This document shows positions 3,073 through 29,049 of a stretch of 34,640 nt of DNA, piece after piece (position 1 is the first letter of the stretch; the number at the start of each line of letters is the position of its first letter). Position numbers and translations under genes: made by a program. Source of the DNA: an uncultured Eubacteriales bacterium (GTDB lineage Bacteria; Bacillota; Clostridia; Oscillospirales; Oscillospiraceae); the NCBI GenBank assembly GCA_900319635.1, contig ONPF01000012.1:1-34640 (forward strand), given 5' to 3'. The notes beneath the pieces were generated by a model. It was not told the origin of the DNA, did no database searches, and saw only the letters and a program-made list of their open reading frames with translations.

Positions 3073-3096
3073 GTAGGGACGAGCATCGCTCGTCCG
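3073..3096 (+). repeat. GTAG-type REP palindrome
   Basis: GTAG (3073-3076) is followed by the stem GGACGAGC (3077-3084), loop ATC and GCTCGTCC (3088-3095), then G. Same build as the copies flanking the transposase at 26530-27118. Just beyond, 3170-3190 holds a decayed palindrome on the other strand that resembles the CGCCGAGCA stem but lacks GTAG. Confidence 0.75.
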
Positions 3097-4790: not shown

Positions 4791-5017
4791 GCCTGCTTCA
4801 AAATACGCGCATAGCCCTGTGGCCATCGTAGGGGAGGGGCTTGCCCCTCCCGGCAGCACAGAAGAAAAATCTTGGAAAAAGTTCGGCAAATTCGCAGCGG
4901 GTACGAATTCGCCGAACTTTTCTTTGCTATAATGGCTTTGCTCGGCCGGGAGGGCACAAGGCCCTCCCCTACGGGATAGCCAAGATTTTTGCATCCTTTT
5001 CAAATTTTGCAACAGGC
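4791..5017. repeat. Composite palindromic element, copy 1 (paired GTAG REPs around a hairpin)
   Basis: Nested symmetry. Outer inverted ends 4791-4804 and 5004-5017 match at 12 of 14 bases. Inside them a plus-strand REP (4828-4852: GTAG, stem GGGAGGGGC/GCCCCTCCC, loop TT) faces a minus-strand REP (4947-4972: GTAG, stem GGGAGGGC/GCCCTCCC, loop CTTGT). At the centre is a perfect 18-bp stem, 4877-4894 with 4904-4921, and the 9-base loop CAGCGGGTA. The REP at 4828-4852 is base-for-base the same as that at 18472-18496. No coding capacity, so it must be moved in trans if mobile. Confidence 0.75.
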
Positions 5018-18471: not shown

Positions 18472-18496
18472 GTAGGGGAGGGGCTTGCCCCTCCCG
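18472..18496 (+). repeat. GTAG-type REP palindrome
   Basis: GTAG (18472-18475), stem GGGAGGGGC/GCCCCTCCC with loop TT, then G. All 25 bases equal those at 4828-4852, some 13.6 kb away. Confidence 0.85.
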
Positions 18497-23150: not shown

Positions 23151-23218
23151 GTAGGGAGCGATCCCCTGATCGCTCCGCTGTTCAAGCGCTCCGGAGGCAT
23201 GTGGGCATGCCTCCCTAC
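23151..23218. repeat. Head-to-head pair of GTAG REPs (BIME-like)
   Basis: Plus-strand REP 23151-23177: GTAG, stem GGAGCGATC/GATCGCTCC, loop CCCT, G. Minus-strand REP 23192-23218: GTAG, stem GGAGGCATG/CATGCCTCC as a perfect 9-bp pair, 4-base loop. Both have exactly 9-bp stems and 4-base loops, but the stem sequences differ. A 14-base spacer separates them. ATTGC on the left (23141-23145) and GCAAT on the right (23225-23229) add an outer inverted pair. Confidence 0.85.
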
Positions 23219-23833: not shown

Positions 23834-25435
23834 TTACCGCGCCTGCTCCAGATCGGCGATGTGCATGTACTCGTCGTAGCTGCCGATGCGGTCGATGATG
23901 CCGTCCTCGGTGATCTCGATGATGCGGTTGGCCACGGTCTGGGTCAGCTGGTGGTCGTGGCAGGAGAAGATCACGTTATACTTGAAAGCCTCCAGGCCGT
24001 TATTCAGCGCCGCGATGGACTCCAGATCCAGGTGGTTGGTGGGCTGATCCAGCACCAGGAAGTTTGCGCCGGAGAGCATCATCCGCGAGAGCATGCAGCG
24101 CACCTTCTCCCCGCCGGAGAGGACCTTTGCGGGCTTGTACACATCGTCGCCGGAGAAAAGCATCCGTCCCAGGAAGGTGCGCAGGTAGCTCTCCCGCTTG
24201 TCGGCGGAAAACTGCCGCATCCACTCGATGAGATCCGCGTCGAAGCCGTCAAAGTAGCTGTTGTGATCCTTGGGGAAGTAGCTGGGCTGGATGGAGGCGC
24301 CCCACTTGACGGTGCCCTCGTCCGGCTCCTCCTCGCCCATGAGGATCTTGAAGAGCATGGTCACGGCCAGCTCGTTCTTGCCCACGATGGCGATCTTGTC
24401 CTCCTTGCCCACGATGAAGCTGACCTTGTTGAGGAGCTTCACCCCGTCCACGGTCTTGGAGACCTGGGTGACGAAGAGGCGATCCTTGCCCGGCTCCCGC
24501 TCGGCCTTGAAGCCCACCCAGGGGTAGCGCCGGCCGGAGGCGGGCAGCTCCTCCACGGTGATCTTGTCCAGCAGCTTCCGGCGGGAGGTGGCCTGCCGGG
24601 ACTTGGACTTGTTGGCGGAGAAGCGGGCGATGAAGGTCTGCAGCTCCGCGATCTTCTGCTCGGCCTTCTTGTTCTGGTCCCGGATCAGCTTCTGGATGAG
24701 CTGGCTGGACTCGTACCAGAAGTCGTAGTTGCCCACGTACATCTTGATCTTGCCGTAGTCGATGTCCACGATGTGGGTGCAGACGTTGTTGAGGAAGTAG
24801 CGGTCATGGCTCACCACCAGCACCGTGCCCTCGTAGTCCATGAGGAAGTCCTCCAGCCAGACGACGCTGGCCAGATCCAGGTTGTTGGTGGGCTCGTCCA
24901 GCAGCAGCACGTCGGGCTTGCCGAAGAGGGCCTGGGCCAGCAGCACCTTCACCTTGAGCCGGGGGTCGATGTCCCCCATCAGGCTCTCGTGCAGCTCCAC
25001 AGGGACGCCCAGACCCTGGAGGATGCGCCCGGCGTCCGACTCGGCCTCGTAGCCGCCCAGCTCCGCAAACTCCTCCTCCAGCTCCGCGGCGCGGATGCCG
25101 TCCTCGTCGGAGAAATCCTCCTTCTCGTAGATGGCGTCCTTCTCCCGGCCGCAGTCAAAGAGCCGCTGGTGCCCCATGATCACGGTGTCCAGCACCCGGC
25201 AGTCGTCGTAGAGGCTCTGGTTCTGCTTTAAGACGGACATGCGCCGCTTGGGCTCCAGCACCACGGAGCCGGAGGTGGGCTCCAGCTCCCCGGAGAGGAT
25301 CTTGATGAAGGTGGACTTGCCCGCGCCGTTTGCGCCGATGATGCCGTAGCAGTTCCCGGCCACAAATTGCAGGTCCACCTTGGAAAACAGCACGGACGGG
25401 CCGAACTGCATGGAAAGGTCGTTGACGGTCAGCAT
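23834..25435 (-). CDS. ABC-F family ATPase (YbiT/YkpA-like)
   Basis: 533 residues with two ATP-binding cassettes and no membrane part. First cassette: Walker A GANGAGKST at 34-42, Walker B with DEPTNNLD at 180-187, but the signature region (151-164, SLMGDIDPRLKVKV) is not LSGGQ. Second: Walker A position is GKNELAVTM (352-360), lacking the lysine, while its signature LSGGEKVRC and Walker B LVLDQPTNHLD are good. The linker has the helical P-site-tRNA motif region (RDQNKKAEQKIAELQTFIARF). ABC-F proteins act on ribosomes, in translation control or antibiotic protection. Here Walker A of cassette 1 with signature of cassette 2 could build one working site. Gene follows the GNAT gene by 15 bases. 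Confidence 0.92.
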   Translation of the reverse strand: MLTVNDLSMQFGPSVLFSKVDLQFVAGNCYGIIGANGAGKSTFIKILSGELEPTSGSVVLEPKRRMSVLKQNQSLYDDCRVLDTVIMGHQRLFDCGREKDAIYEKEDFSDEDGIRAAELEEEFAELGGYEAESDAGRILQGLGVPVELHESLMGDIDPRLKVKVLLAQALFGKPDVLLLDEPTNNLDLASVVWLEDFLMDYEGTVLVVSHDRYFLNNVCTHIVDIDYGKIKMYVGNYDFWYESSQLIQKLIRDQNKKAEQKIAELQTFIARFSANKSKSRQATSRRKLLDKITVEELPASGRRYPWVGFKAEREPGKDRLFVTQVSKTVDGVKLLNKVSFIVGKEDKIAIVGKNELAVTMLFKILMGEEEPDEGTVKWGASIQPSYFPKDHNSYFDGFDADLIEWMRQFSADKRESYLRTFLGRMLFSGDDVYKPAKVLSGGEKVRCMLSRMMLSGANFLVLDQPTNHLDLESIAALNNGLEAFKYNVIFSCHDHQLTQTVANRIIEITEDGIIDRIGSYDEYMHIADLEQAR

Positions 25436-25982: not shown

Positions 25983-26492
25983 TTACCGCAGCTTTTTCCA
26001 GCCTAAGCCGGGGGCGACGCGGGCGATCTCCGGCAGCAGCGCCTCTCCGAAGACCCAGATCTCCTTCCGCCAGGGGTGACCCAGATAGCCGAAGCAGAAG
26101 TCCTCGTCCAGGAAGAAATAGTAGTCCCCGTCGGGGTAGTAGAAGGGGAAGGGAGCCCGGTATTTTCCGTCCCCGTCCTCCAGCTTGACCCGTTTCTGCT
26201 CCTCTTCCTTCCGTGGGTCGTAGAGGAAGGCGCAGTGGTACCAGTCCATGGCGTAAAGCCGCCTGCCCGGCTCCGTCGCGGAGAGCAGACAGGCCTTCAC
26301 GGCCTCCGGCGTCTTTTCAATTTGCTCCTGGCTCACCCCGTCCAGGGCGTAGACCGCCCAGGGCTTGGGCAGCCGGAAGGGCCGCTTCCACCAGAGGAGA
26401 GAGTGGCTCCGGCCTTGGGCGCTGGGGCGAAAGCGCAGCTCCAGGCTCACCCGGTCCTCCAGCGCGCGTGTTTCCTGTTCGTTCAGCAGCAT
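25983..26492 (-). CDS. DUF2716-like protein
   Basis: 169 residues. The second half matches the DUF2716 pattern: LYAMDWYHCAFLYDP, then FYYPDGDYYFFLDEDFCFG and YLGHPWRKEIWVFGEALL. No function is known for this family; it lacks signal peptide and membrane segments. AAGGAG six bases before the ATG. First gene of a likely operon with the GNAT and ABC-F genes. The REP-framed transposase unit lies just upstream, so the operon promoter is either within 26493-26529 or was separated by that unit. Confidence 0.8.
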   Translation of the reverse strand: MLLNEQETRALEDRVSLELRFRPSAQGRSHSLLWWKRPFRLPKPWAVYALDGVSQEQIEKTPEAVKACLLSATEPGRRLYAMDWYHCAFLYDPRKEEEQKRVKLEDGDGKYRAPFPFYYPDGDYYFFLDEDFCFGYLGHPWRKEIWVFGEALLPEIARVAPGLGWKKLR

Positions 26493-26529
26493 GGCGTGCT
26501 CCTTTCGTGTATGTTTTCGCTTCTCTCCC

Positions 26530-26552
26530 GTAGCGCCGAGCAGTGCTCGGCG
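26530..26552 (+). repeat. REP hairpin, left boundary of the RAYT unit
   Basis: GTAG (26530-26533), stem CGCCGAGCA (26534-26542), one base G, TGCTCGGCG (26544-26552). Its reverse complement is identical over all 23 bases to 27096-27118. Confidence 0.9.
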
Positions 26553-26576
26553 AATCGGCTTAAGGGAGCTTGCAAC

Positions 26577-27056
26577 CTAAAAAGTCGGAGAATAGTATTC
26601 GTCCTCGGCCCATTTGGATGGGTTGTTCATAATATACTGATACCTTATGATATAGTCTGCATCATTTCGGATCACGTGGTCATGATACTTGTCCTGCCAA
26701 ATAGATTGACCACACTGCTTTGTGACAAAGCCTTTCAAGTGCTGGATAATTCTTCCTAAGGCGGGTCCATCCTCCGAAGGTAGTTGGAGGAGCAGATGAA
26801 CGTGGTTTGGCATGATGGCAAAAGCGTCGACCTGTACGCCCGGATAACGTATGGATATTTGCCGGATCCCCGTCTCCGCGAGGGACCCAAAGGTCGACAA
26901 TTGAACCGTAGGCGCATTCAAGCAGTCCCCGGGTTGAATGCGGGAGAGAATGGGAAGGCGCTCTTTCGTACAAAATGTCACAAAATACGCGCCAGCCTGG
27001 CTGTAGTCATAATGCGGAAGACGCAGACGCTTCCCAATCTGGTGTGGGTGGTTCAT
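26577..27056 (-). CDS. REP-associated tyrosine transposase (RAYT), Y1/IS200-like
   Basis: 159 residues, a single-domain HUH nuclease. The HUH motif is HVH at 85-87 in MPNHVHLLLQL. The C-terminal helix has the RAYT pattern IWQDKYHDHVIRND then YIIRYQYIMNNPSKW, with Tyr139 or Tyr141 as the likely nucleophile. The N-terminal AGAYFVTFCTKER also fits. ATG with GGGAG six bases upstream. Such enzymes cut and join single-stranded REP hairpins in trans and are thought to be domesticated relatives of IS200/IS605 transposases. Here the gene is framed by two identical inverted REP hairpins, and its base composition is clearly lower in G+C than its neighbours. No accessory TnpB, so not a full IS605. Confidence 0.92.
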   Translation of the reverse strand: MNHPHQIGKRLRLPHYDYSQAGAYFVTFCTKERLPILSRIQPGDCLNAPTVQLSTFGSLAETGIRQISIRYPGVQVDAFAIMPNHVHLLLQLPSEDGPALGRIIQHLKGFVTKQCGQSIWQDKYHDHVIRNDADYIIRYQYIMNNPSKWAEDEYYSPTF

Positions 27057-27095
27057 GATGTGCTCCCAAATATCAAAACACGATGCAGCAAGGGA

Positions 27096-27118
27096 CGCCG
27101 AGCACTGCTCGGCGCTAC
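27096..27118 (-). repeat. REP hairpin, right boundary of the RAYT unit
   Basis: On the minus strand GTAG (27115-27118), stem CGCCGAGCA/TGCTCGGCG with one central base. Perfect inverted copy of 26530-26552; the unit between outer ends is 589 bases. Confidence 0.9.
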
Positions 27119-27155
27119 GGAGTACCTTCCTCGAGGGGAGGCATGCGCTGTTCCG

Positions 27156-28112
27156 TTACGCAAAATATTTCTCCACAAAATCGACCTTCTCCACCGTGAA
27201 CTCCCGGCCCCGGAGGTAATTGAGGATCCCGGCGTCGGTGGGGAAGTCGAAGCGCAGTTTGTAGGAATAGAGCGCCTGGCCCTTCTCGTCAAAATCCCTG
27301 TTGAAGCGCTCCCGGCCGTACTTGCCGTCCCCCAGCAGGGGCCAGCCCGCGTGGGCCATCTGGACCCGGATCTGGTGGGTGCGCCCGGTGAGAAGCCGGC
27401 ACTCCACCAGGCTCAGCGCCCCCTTGGAGCGCAGGAGCTTATACTCCGTCACGGCGGTCTTGGCGCCGGGCTCCGGCTTTTGCTTCACAAAGACCTGGTT
27501 CTTGGCCGCGTCCTTGAAGAGCCAGTTCTCCAGCCGCCCCTCCGGGGGCTTCGGCCGCCCCTGGACGGCGCAGAGGTAGTACTTCTCAATCTCCCGATCC
27601 CGGATCTTGTCGTTCAAAATCCGCAGCGCCTCGGCGTTCTTCGCGGCGATGACGATGCCGCCGGTGTTCCGGTCGATCCGGTTGCAGAGGGCGGGGGCGA
27701 AGGAATTTTCCTCCCGGGGCTTCCACTCCCCCTTCTGGGCCAGGTAGGCTTGGATGTTGGCGATGAGGGTGTTGTAGTCCCAGACCCCGGCGCTGTGGCA
27801 GAGGACGCCGGGCTTTTTGTCCGCCAGGAGGATGTTCTCGTCCTCGTAGACGACGGTGAGCCGGGGCGTGCCCACCTTCAGGTAGGAATTTTCCTCCCGG
27901 GGCTTTTCAAAGAACTCGTCGTTGATATAGAATTGTAAAGTGTCCCCCACGCTGAGACGGGCGTCCCGCTTGGCGCCCTTGCCGTTGAGCTTGATGCGCT
28001 TGAGGCGGATGTACTTCTGCAGCAGGCTTTCCGGCAGCAGGGGCACCGCCTTTCCCACAAAGCGATCCAGCCGCTGGCCGGCGTCGTTGGGCTTTACGGT
28101 CAGTTCTTTCAT
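27156..28112 (-). CDS. RluA-family pseudouridine synthase
   Basis: 318 residues. N-terminal S4 RNA-binding domain (about 12-70, LDRFVGKAVPLLPESLLQKYIRLKRI region), then the catalytic domain. The catalytic aspartate is Asp147 in CNRIDRNTGGIVIAAKN; most relatives read HRLDRxTSG, so His/Leu are replaced by Asn/Ile, as in a known clostridial subgroup. GRTHQIRVQMAHAGWPLLGD is the second diagnostic block. It isomerises uridine to pseudouridine in 23S rRNA or tRNA; the target cannot be chosen from sequence. Divergent from the yceD-rpmF pair, with overlapping promoters. Confidence 0.94.
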   Translation of the reverse strand: MKELTVKPNDAGQRLDRFVGKAVPLLPESLLQKYIRLKRIKLNGKGAKRDARLSVGDTLQFYINDEFFEKPREENSYLKVGTPRLTVVYEDENILLADKKPGVLCHSAGVWDYNTLIANIQAYLAQKGEWKPREENSFAPALCNRIDRNTGGIVIAAKNAEALRILNDKIRDREIEKYYLCAVQGRPKPPEGRLENWLFKDAAKNQVFVKQKPEPGAKTAVTEYKLLRSKGALSLVECRLLTGRTHQIRVQMAHAGWPLLGDGKYGRERFNRDFDEKGQALYSYKLRFDFPTDAGILNYLRGREFTVEKVDFVEKYFA

Positions 28113-29023: not shown

Positions 29024-29049
29024 GTAGGGGCGACCCTTGCGGTCGCCCG
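29024..29049 (+). repeat. GTAG-type REP palindrome
   Basis: GTAG (29024-29027), stem GGGCGACC (29028-29035), loop CTTGC, GGTCGCCC (29041-29048), G. The loop resembles that of the copies at 4947-4972 and 6719-6743 while the stem differs. A second hairpin, ATCGC/GCGAT, lies at 29000-29015. Confidence 0.8.

Follow-up and report, generated by a model that had tools for sequence, protein, structure and literature searches.

A clostridial RAYT gene framed by two identical inverted GTAG REPs, and relatives that carry paired REPs inside their genes

The window (the whole stretch of 34,640 nucleotides of Oscillospiraceae DNA that was analyzed) contains a gene for a REP-associated tyrosine transposase (RAYT/TnpAREP) whose cognate REPs are of the GTAG kind. 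The unit is very probably a REPtron, namely, a chromosomally fixed RAYT gene framed by two REPs of its own and presumably acting on REPs and REPINs. The clade of the window gene is an exception among its relatives in having its REPs outside the gene. The features concerned are as follows.

3073 to 3095, plus strand: sister-type REP GTAGGGACG, the type of the other sublineage of the same clade (30 pattern matches in the assembly).
4828 to 4851, 4948 to 4972, and 18472 to 18495: GTAGGGGAGGG.. hairpins.
23151 to 23218: REPIN-like inverted REP pair of 68 bp, GTAGGGAGCGATCCCC / GTAGGGAGGCATGCCC, with hairpins at 23151 and 23193.
23834 to 25435, minus strand: neighbor A, with two ABC_tran stretches and ABC_tran_Xtn; conserved, left border of the RAYT locus.
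25983 to 26492, minus strand: neighbor C, DUF2716.
26528 to 26552, plus strand: downstream REP, 3′ of the gene, made up of CC, GTAG, and a hairpin; exact inverted match.
26577 to 27056, minus strand: RAYT/TnpAREP gene, encoding a Y1 HUH protein of 159 amino acids with HVH at 85 to 87 and a predicted catalytic Y141.
27096 to 27120, minus strand: upstream REP, on the 5′ side of the gene, an identical copy in inverted orientation; exact inverted match.
27156 to 28112, minus strand: RNA pseudouridylate synthase (PseudoU_synth_2), right border of the RAYT locus.
29024 to 29048, plus strand: REP GTAGGGGCGACCC, not of the window-gene type, found inside the frames of RAYT genes on contigs C5 and C41.

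The original prediction had described a RAYT/REP unit in a clostridial genome, with a 159-residue Y1/HUH protein bearing HVH at 85 to 87 and C-terminal tyrosines. The open reading frame agrees with that description, as do the fold match, the conserved residues, and the pairing with REPs across the clade. In the translation (P0001), YIIRYQYIMNNP lies close to the C terminus. P0001 matched the NCBIfam model NF047646 (REP_Tyr_transpos) with an E value of 6.3e-21 and 74.8 bits, which is below the curated cutoff of 80 bits, and the same model was matched by all 16 members of alignment A1 at an E value of ≤0.01. Its score was 24.4 bits against Pfam Y1_Tnp (cutoff, 23) and 21.9 bits against the IS200 family TnpA model NF033573 (cutoff, 55), so that it falls outside the latter family. 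PDB entry 4er8, the E. coli TnpAREP, was matched by sequence with an E value of 3e-9, and a Foldseek search with the AlphaFold2 model of P0001 (pLDDT 85.8) ranked 4er8, where that protein is seen with a REP, first with an E value of 5e-9. Both the sequence and the model present an HUH motif and a single catalytic tyrosine in a Y1 fold. When the sequences were aligned, Y141, N145, W120, and Q121 of P0001 corresponded to residues 115, 119, 94, and 95 of 4er8, and D126, H127, and R130 corresponded to residues 100, 101, and 104; we take Y115 of 4er8 to be the catalytic residue. Roles for N119, W94, Q95, E100, H101, and R104 of TnpAREP are given in the accessible part of PMC6006769. The W, Q, H, and R that read GTAG are retained in P0001 and the equivalent of E100 is D126, a change from E to D which is reported there for TnpAREP subclasses 2.5 and 2.7.

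The hairpins proper occupy 26530 to 26552 (plus) and 27096 to 27118 (minus). They had been described as an inverted match over 23 of 23 bases, and the exact match was found to reach 25 of 25. Each reads, as predicted, as GTAG followed by a 9-bp stem, here with a 1-nucleotide center; folded as single-stranded DNA, they gave an 8-bp stem with a 3-nucleotide loop at −10.7 and −10.8 kcal/mol (z scores of −4.5 and −4.7). Hairpins of at least 8 bp followed GTAG nine times in the window; the overlapping CGTA equaled this count, the highest of any tetramer, and the mean for all 256 tetramers was 0.61. The flank hairpin pattern, with up to three mismatches allowed, had 30 matches in the 2.16-Mb assembly, some of which are the second strand of the same hairpin, and the reversed-pattern control had none. 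The REPs bordering the window gene belong to a family scattered through the genome, as is characteristic of RAYT genes. Chance pairing of the hairpins with the gene was considered and is ruled out by the tetramer counts, the reversed-pattern control, and the co-occurrence across genomes.

The genus was sampled with 102 genomes, 47 of which had RAYT matches at an E value of ≤1e-8. Inspection covered 97 RAYT loci, 79 of them full length by motif, and a RAYT tree was built from 90 rows and 142 columns with the loop columns left out; many of its forks are open. The window gene fell in a clade of eight genes from seven genomes (SH-aLRT 98) whose members are 57 to 70% identical to P0001. All eight genes lie between the gene for neighbor A, which we take to be an ABC-F type ATPase, and the pseudouridylate synthase gene, presumably of the RluA type. 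The locus was compared in 21 genomes, picked for a RAYT near RluA or for high RluA identity. The clade keeps a fixed place and is consistent with vertical inheritance, with a sub-position that varies inside the one neighborhood (A-C, C-RluA, or A-B). A ninth RAYT near RluA, in G022, is 36 to 39% identical, failed the motif test, and stands outside the tree; no ATPase gene was found on the G022 stretch around it. In G059, two clade members are adjacent, the GTAGCGCC type going with the gene between C and RluA and the GTAGGGACG type with the gene between A and C. Most simply, this would be an old tandem RAYT pair with separate losses, the window genome having kept the first gene and G010 and G045 the second. 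No RAYT was found at A-C-RluA in G044, G096, or G028. In G044 and G096, the flank on the C side of the gap matched the window flank (0 of 200 shuffles as good) and the match on the RluA side was weak (4 of 200 shuffles as good in G044 and 15 of 200 in G096), and in G010 and G028, which have no RAYT in the C-RluA gap, neither flank matched the joined window flanks; none of these four loci provided a clean empty site for insertion of the gene and its REPs as a unit. The dN/dS ratio was 0.15 for G045/G010 and 0.086 for G045/G059b, neither pair including the window gene; dS was not estimable in two other clade pairs above 62% identity, one of them the window gene and G059a.

The original prediction had also proposed that orthologues be searched for linked GTAG palindromes, and cognate REPs were found close by at all eight clade genes in the seven genomes. 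The types follow the tree, with one REP type per RAYT lineage: GTAGCGCC goes with G000 (the window genome), G059a, G025, and G063, and the sister type GTAGGGACG goes with G010, G045, G082, and G059b. Genome by genome, REPs and RAYT do not always occur together. At least one of the two cognate REP types was found in 7/7 genomes with the clade versus 9/95 without it (Fisher P = 6e-7, a test that overstates independence because the genomes are related). The pairing was to count as coincidence if GTAG hairpins were equally dense in genomes lacking the gene; 86 of the 95 had zero matches to either pattern, and the other 9 indicate that REPs can outlast a detected gene or lack one. Matches to the GTAGCGCC pattern numbered 104 in G059, 18 in G063, 9 in G045, 7 each in G000 and G025, 2 in G010, and 0 in G082; those to GTAGGGACG numbered 61 in G082, 48 in G010, 30 in G000, 29 in G045, 13 in G063, 3 in G059, and 1 in G025. 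In the nine genomes without the clade, the counts (GTAGCGCC plus GTAGGGACG) were 48 + 2 in G028, 11 + 19 in G044, 0 + 26 in G091, 20 + 0 in G095, 3 + 11 in G096, 1 + 13 in G067, 1 + 2 in G089, 2 + 0 in G012, and 0 + 2 in G081. A double-footed hairpin is counted twice in these figures, and the reversed-pattern controls for both types gave 0 in every genome. Most of the nine are incomplete MAGs; G044 is 96% complete, with an A-C-RluA stretch that has no RAYT.

With the REPs of the locus set aside, all seven clade genomes kept copies elsewhere, the fewest being one of each type in G025, where six of the seven GTAGCGCC matches are at the locus; two of the seven in the window assembly are the gene flanks. 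The more numerous sister-type copies in the window genome may be left over from a sister gene that has since disappeared. Sister-type REPINs of 73 to 74 bp were present at six fetched places in the window genome, and REPINs of the GTAGCGCC type, 76 to 77 bp long, were present at seven places in G059. Five of the six in the window genome (L181 to L186) join a GAGCA half to a GACCA half, and two of the six are near-identical over 73 bp plus 12 bases on each side.

Besides the two gene flanks, the window holds seven GTAG hairpins, which had been taken to be substrates of the enzyme. That part of the original prediction was not borne out, as most match the REP types of other RAYTs instead: one is of the sister type, five are exact types of other RAYTs, and one is similar only. 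The hairpins at 4828 and 18472 are GTAGGGGAGGGGC, identical to REPs that lie within RAYT genes of G063, G003, and other genera, and that at 4948 resembles this type without an exact partner; no RAYT with the GTAGGGGAGGGGC type was seen among the RAYT-like loci of this assembly. The types at 23151 and 23193 are those flanking the RAYT gene on contig C67 of G059 and are absent from the RAYT-like loci found in the window assembly. Among the types matching RAYTs elsewhere, only GTAGGGGCGACCC has RAYT genes carrying it in this assembly (17 copies, 4 of them inside the C5 and C41 genes). This type was present in 10/11 genomes with its RAYT lineage, one of the 11 being assigned by its REPs and standing outside the tree, and in 16/91 without it, a comparison that is partly circular because the counts include in-gene copies (in G051, both copies are in genes).

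The G+C content of the window gene is 49.6%, and that of its flanks is 60.7%. The unit is therefore lower than its surroundings, as originally noted. The arrival from outside that had been read into this difference does not follow, since the clade stands at one locus in seven genomes and all eight of its genes share the trait (43 to 50% versus 60 to 64% in the flanks), so that low G+C is a lasting trait and does not point to a newcomer. A recent horizontal transfer deduced only from G+C was accordingly rejected. Among the 79 full-length genus RAYT genes, the median was 52% versus 60%, with 62 of the 79 below their flanks.

By homology with TnpAREP from E. coli, Stenotrophomonas, and Marinomonas, whose biochemistry is published, the enzyme would bind the GTAG foot and the hairpin of a single-stranded REP, Y141 would cut nearby and then rejoin the DNA, and REPs and REPINs might thereby be copied or moved around the genome with the RAYT gene staying put. 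Another reading is that of a recently arrived IS200/IS605-type insertion sequence, mobile as a whole, with the hairpins as its ends; the position of the gene between two inverted hairpins, the low G+C of the gene, the weak IS200 match, the shifting sub-positions in one neighborhood, and the sequence beside gene C in G044 and G096, which matches the window flank with no RAYT in the gap, are all in keeping with this. It is nevertheless highly improbable, given that P0001 has a single copy in the assembly (the genome has seven RAYT-like loci, and the other RAYT-like matches do not exceed 53% identity over the part that aligns), that its clade members, 57 to 70% identical to it, all sit at one locus, that REP_Tyr_transpos scores far above IS200, and that REPs elsewhere stand alone and as REPINs. 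We also considered a dead or domesticated relic, a gene that has ceased to act on REPs, with hairpins that are transcript ends or fossils. The few own-type REPs of the window genome (seven) and the persistence of REPs where no clade gene was detected point that way, but the low dN/dS (0.09 to 0.15) in two clade pairs, neither with the window gene, the retention of the catalytic and GTAG-reading positions, and the 104 pattern matches and REPINs of G059, which has the nearest relative, make it unlikely.

In the relatives, REPs were found within the coding sequence. A strict internal hairpin was defined as GTAG with a stem of at least 8 bp and no mismatch, and a tolerant one could have one mismatch or GTGG. 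The 79 full-length genus genes contained 85 strict hairpins, whereas 100 synonymous-codon shuffles averaged 0.12 and never exceeded 2. These lie at two sites: site A, which precedes HUH (plus orientation in 45/46), and site B, between HUH and WQ (minus in 40/40). By the strict definition, 38 genes had both sites, 7 had A only, 2 had B only, and 32 had none; by the tolerant one, the numbers were 61, 6, 4, and 8. The window gene has no internal GTAG hairpin by either definition and, with three relatives of the GTAGCGCC type, is among the last eight. In other genera, 27 of the best-scoring places (3 partial) gave 24 full genes, of which 17 had both sites, 5 had B only, and 2 had none; this set leans to internal REPs because the search query gene has them. 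In the model of the window protein, site A falls in the turn at 42 to 49, between strands 38 to 41 and 50 to 53, and site B falls in the loop at 93 to 99, between the HUH strand and the helix at 100 to 115.

When the genus, the other genera, and seven further relatives were combined, 85 of 110 proteins had genes with GTAG hairpins at both A and B, or 85 of 115 on adding five distant relatives (L021, L029, L030, L031, and L032) that had been left out and have one internal site or none. A and B were inverted to each other in 85/85 genes (83 plus/minus and 2 minus/plus). They shared their first 12 bases in 64 and differed in 21, and in one gene (G028_C27) they are two clearly different types. Among 13 non-overlapping tree pairs with unlike A types (2 or more differences within the first 12 bases), the change was concerted in 12, tied in 1, and discordant in none (sign test P = 0.00024). 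The REP DNA translates into different peptides at A and B, and at a given loop the frame varies with the REP type (A in frame 0 or 1, B in frame 1 or 0). Since the same loops are coded in different frames and as different peptides, the peptide is not what is conserved. Compensating stem pairs offer no independent test because pairing was the basis on which hairpins were selected. A fast turnover by which internal REPs are overwritten found no support, the closest pair differing in A type being 0.68 changes per column apart.

Several further arrangements were observed. In the Pseudoflavonifractor MAGs (L025 and L026), the pair is flipped, with A minus and B plus, still mutually inverted. Two loci of the window genome (L014 and L015, contig C24) have repeated REP-coded units at B, with peptide repeats such as TGPSGTPAPTRE, and in one of them the RAYT match is split across two open frames. 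Single palindromes near B in Acetothermia, Acidobacteria, and Zixibacteria (L029, L033, and L034) start and finish with different feet, GTAG and CTAC, resembling published double-foot REPs.

Both internal REPs are present in relatives L022 to L027, only B in L021 and L029, and neither in L030 to L032; the internal pair is not the root state, as these last are the most distant. In the tree, genes with both internal REPs surround the window clade, whose sister-type members G045, G082, and G059b retain a REP at A and G010 a weak one at B. On deep forks with moderate support, we infer that the window clade lost REPs from inside the gene and kept or gained them outside. An ancestor within the group would have had an inverted REP pair in frame, in loop A before HUH and loop B after it; in the window clade this pair would have decayed, with the REPs now outside the gene.

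As RAYT lineages diverge, their REP types change too, so that the DNA hairpin, not the encoded peptide, is what is kept. We tentatively propose, as close to an even call but leaning to doubt, that in this family the substrate of the transposase is normally contained in its gene, as a REPIN-like inverted pair at two fixed loops that serves as a working cis element, is re-coded in different frames as types change, both members together, and has moved to the flanks in the window clade. If so, the enzyme may act on its own gene, remain linked with its REP type through transfer, or limit its own expression. It is also quite conceivable, if somewhat doubtful, that the in-frame REPs at A and B are without function, having inserted passively where flexible loops tolerate them. 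In the model of the window protein each site is a loop, several REP-coded units can pile up at B, and the 21 of 85 pairs differing in their first 12 bases fit such a history; in the accessible parts of the sources, Quentin et al. (2018) argue for tolerance of REPs between HuH and Y (PMC6006769), and REPs inside unrelated genes are known (PMC3733652). Counting against passive insertion are the universal mutual inversion, the 64 matching pairs, the 12 concordant contrasts of 13 (1 tie, none discordant), the large excess over synonymous shuffles, and the presence of REPs in different frames in the same loops.

These observations bear on how REP transposases and their repeats are kept in step and on the reasons for retention of the genes. 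This family has many RAYT lineages and REP types, and most genes examined carry hairpins of their own type, so that a single gene can show how enzyme and hairpin have co-evolved. The two sister enzymes of G059 with their two REP types, together with the inferred losses elsewhere, provide a natural experiment on the fate of REPs after loss of the enzyme.

The REPtron of E. coli TnpAREP/RAYT (4er8) shares with the window unit the HUH-Y1 core, the equivalents of Y115, N119, W94, Q95, H101, and R104, the GTAG-tagged hairpins flanking the gene, and dispersed REPs and REPINs. Unlike it, the window has a palindrome without a bulge, D126 in place of E100, seven RAYT-like loci in the genome, and relatives of its gene from Oscillospiraceae and Ruminococcaceae records. 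The REPtrons Sm of Stenotrophomonas and Mb of Marinomonas have gammaproteobacterial hosts. In the part of Corneloup et al. (2021) that was available (PMC8266576), these share perfect-palindrome REPs after GTAG and the co-evolution of TnpAREP with REP, and no mention of internal REPs was found for them there. The GTAG REP families of Di Nocera et al. (2013) share the GTAG foot, short stem, dimers, and RAYT linkage and are described, in the portion at hand, from Proteobacteria, Cyanobacteria, Chloroflexi, and the PVC group (PMC3733652); terms for Firmicutes and Clostridia had no match in that text. A literature search for REPs in Firmicutes or Faecalibacterium, whose coverage took in few subscription papers, returned nothing relevant.

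As far as the accessible text of PMC6006769 goes, TnpAREP subclass 2.4 has in common with our family GTAG REPs, three G-C pairs at the foot of the stem, and a patchy distribution across phyla, and with the relatives of the window gene it shares in-frame REPs within the tnpAREP genes, which Quentin et al. (2018) place generally between HuH and Y, approximately at site B. In contrast to subclass 2.4, the window gene has no REP between HuH and Y, and the relatives add a fixed site before HUH, inverted and mostly matched; that same text yielded no second REP site before HuH, no inverted matched pairs, and no Clostridia for this subclass. Internal REPs are thus already published (PMC6006769, in the part seen), the matched pair of the relatives was not found in the accessible text, and the window unit itself belongs to a known kind.
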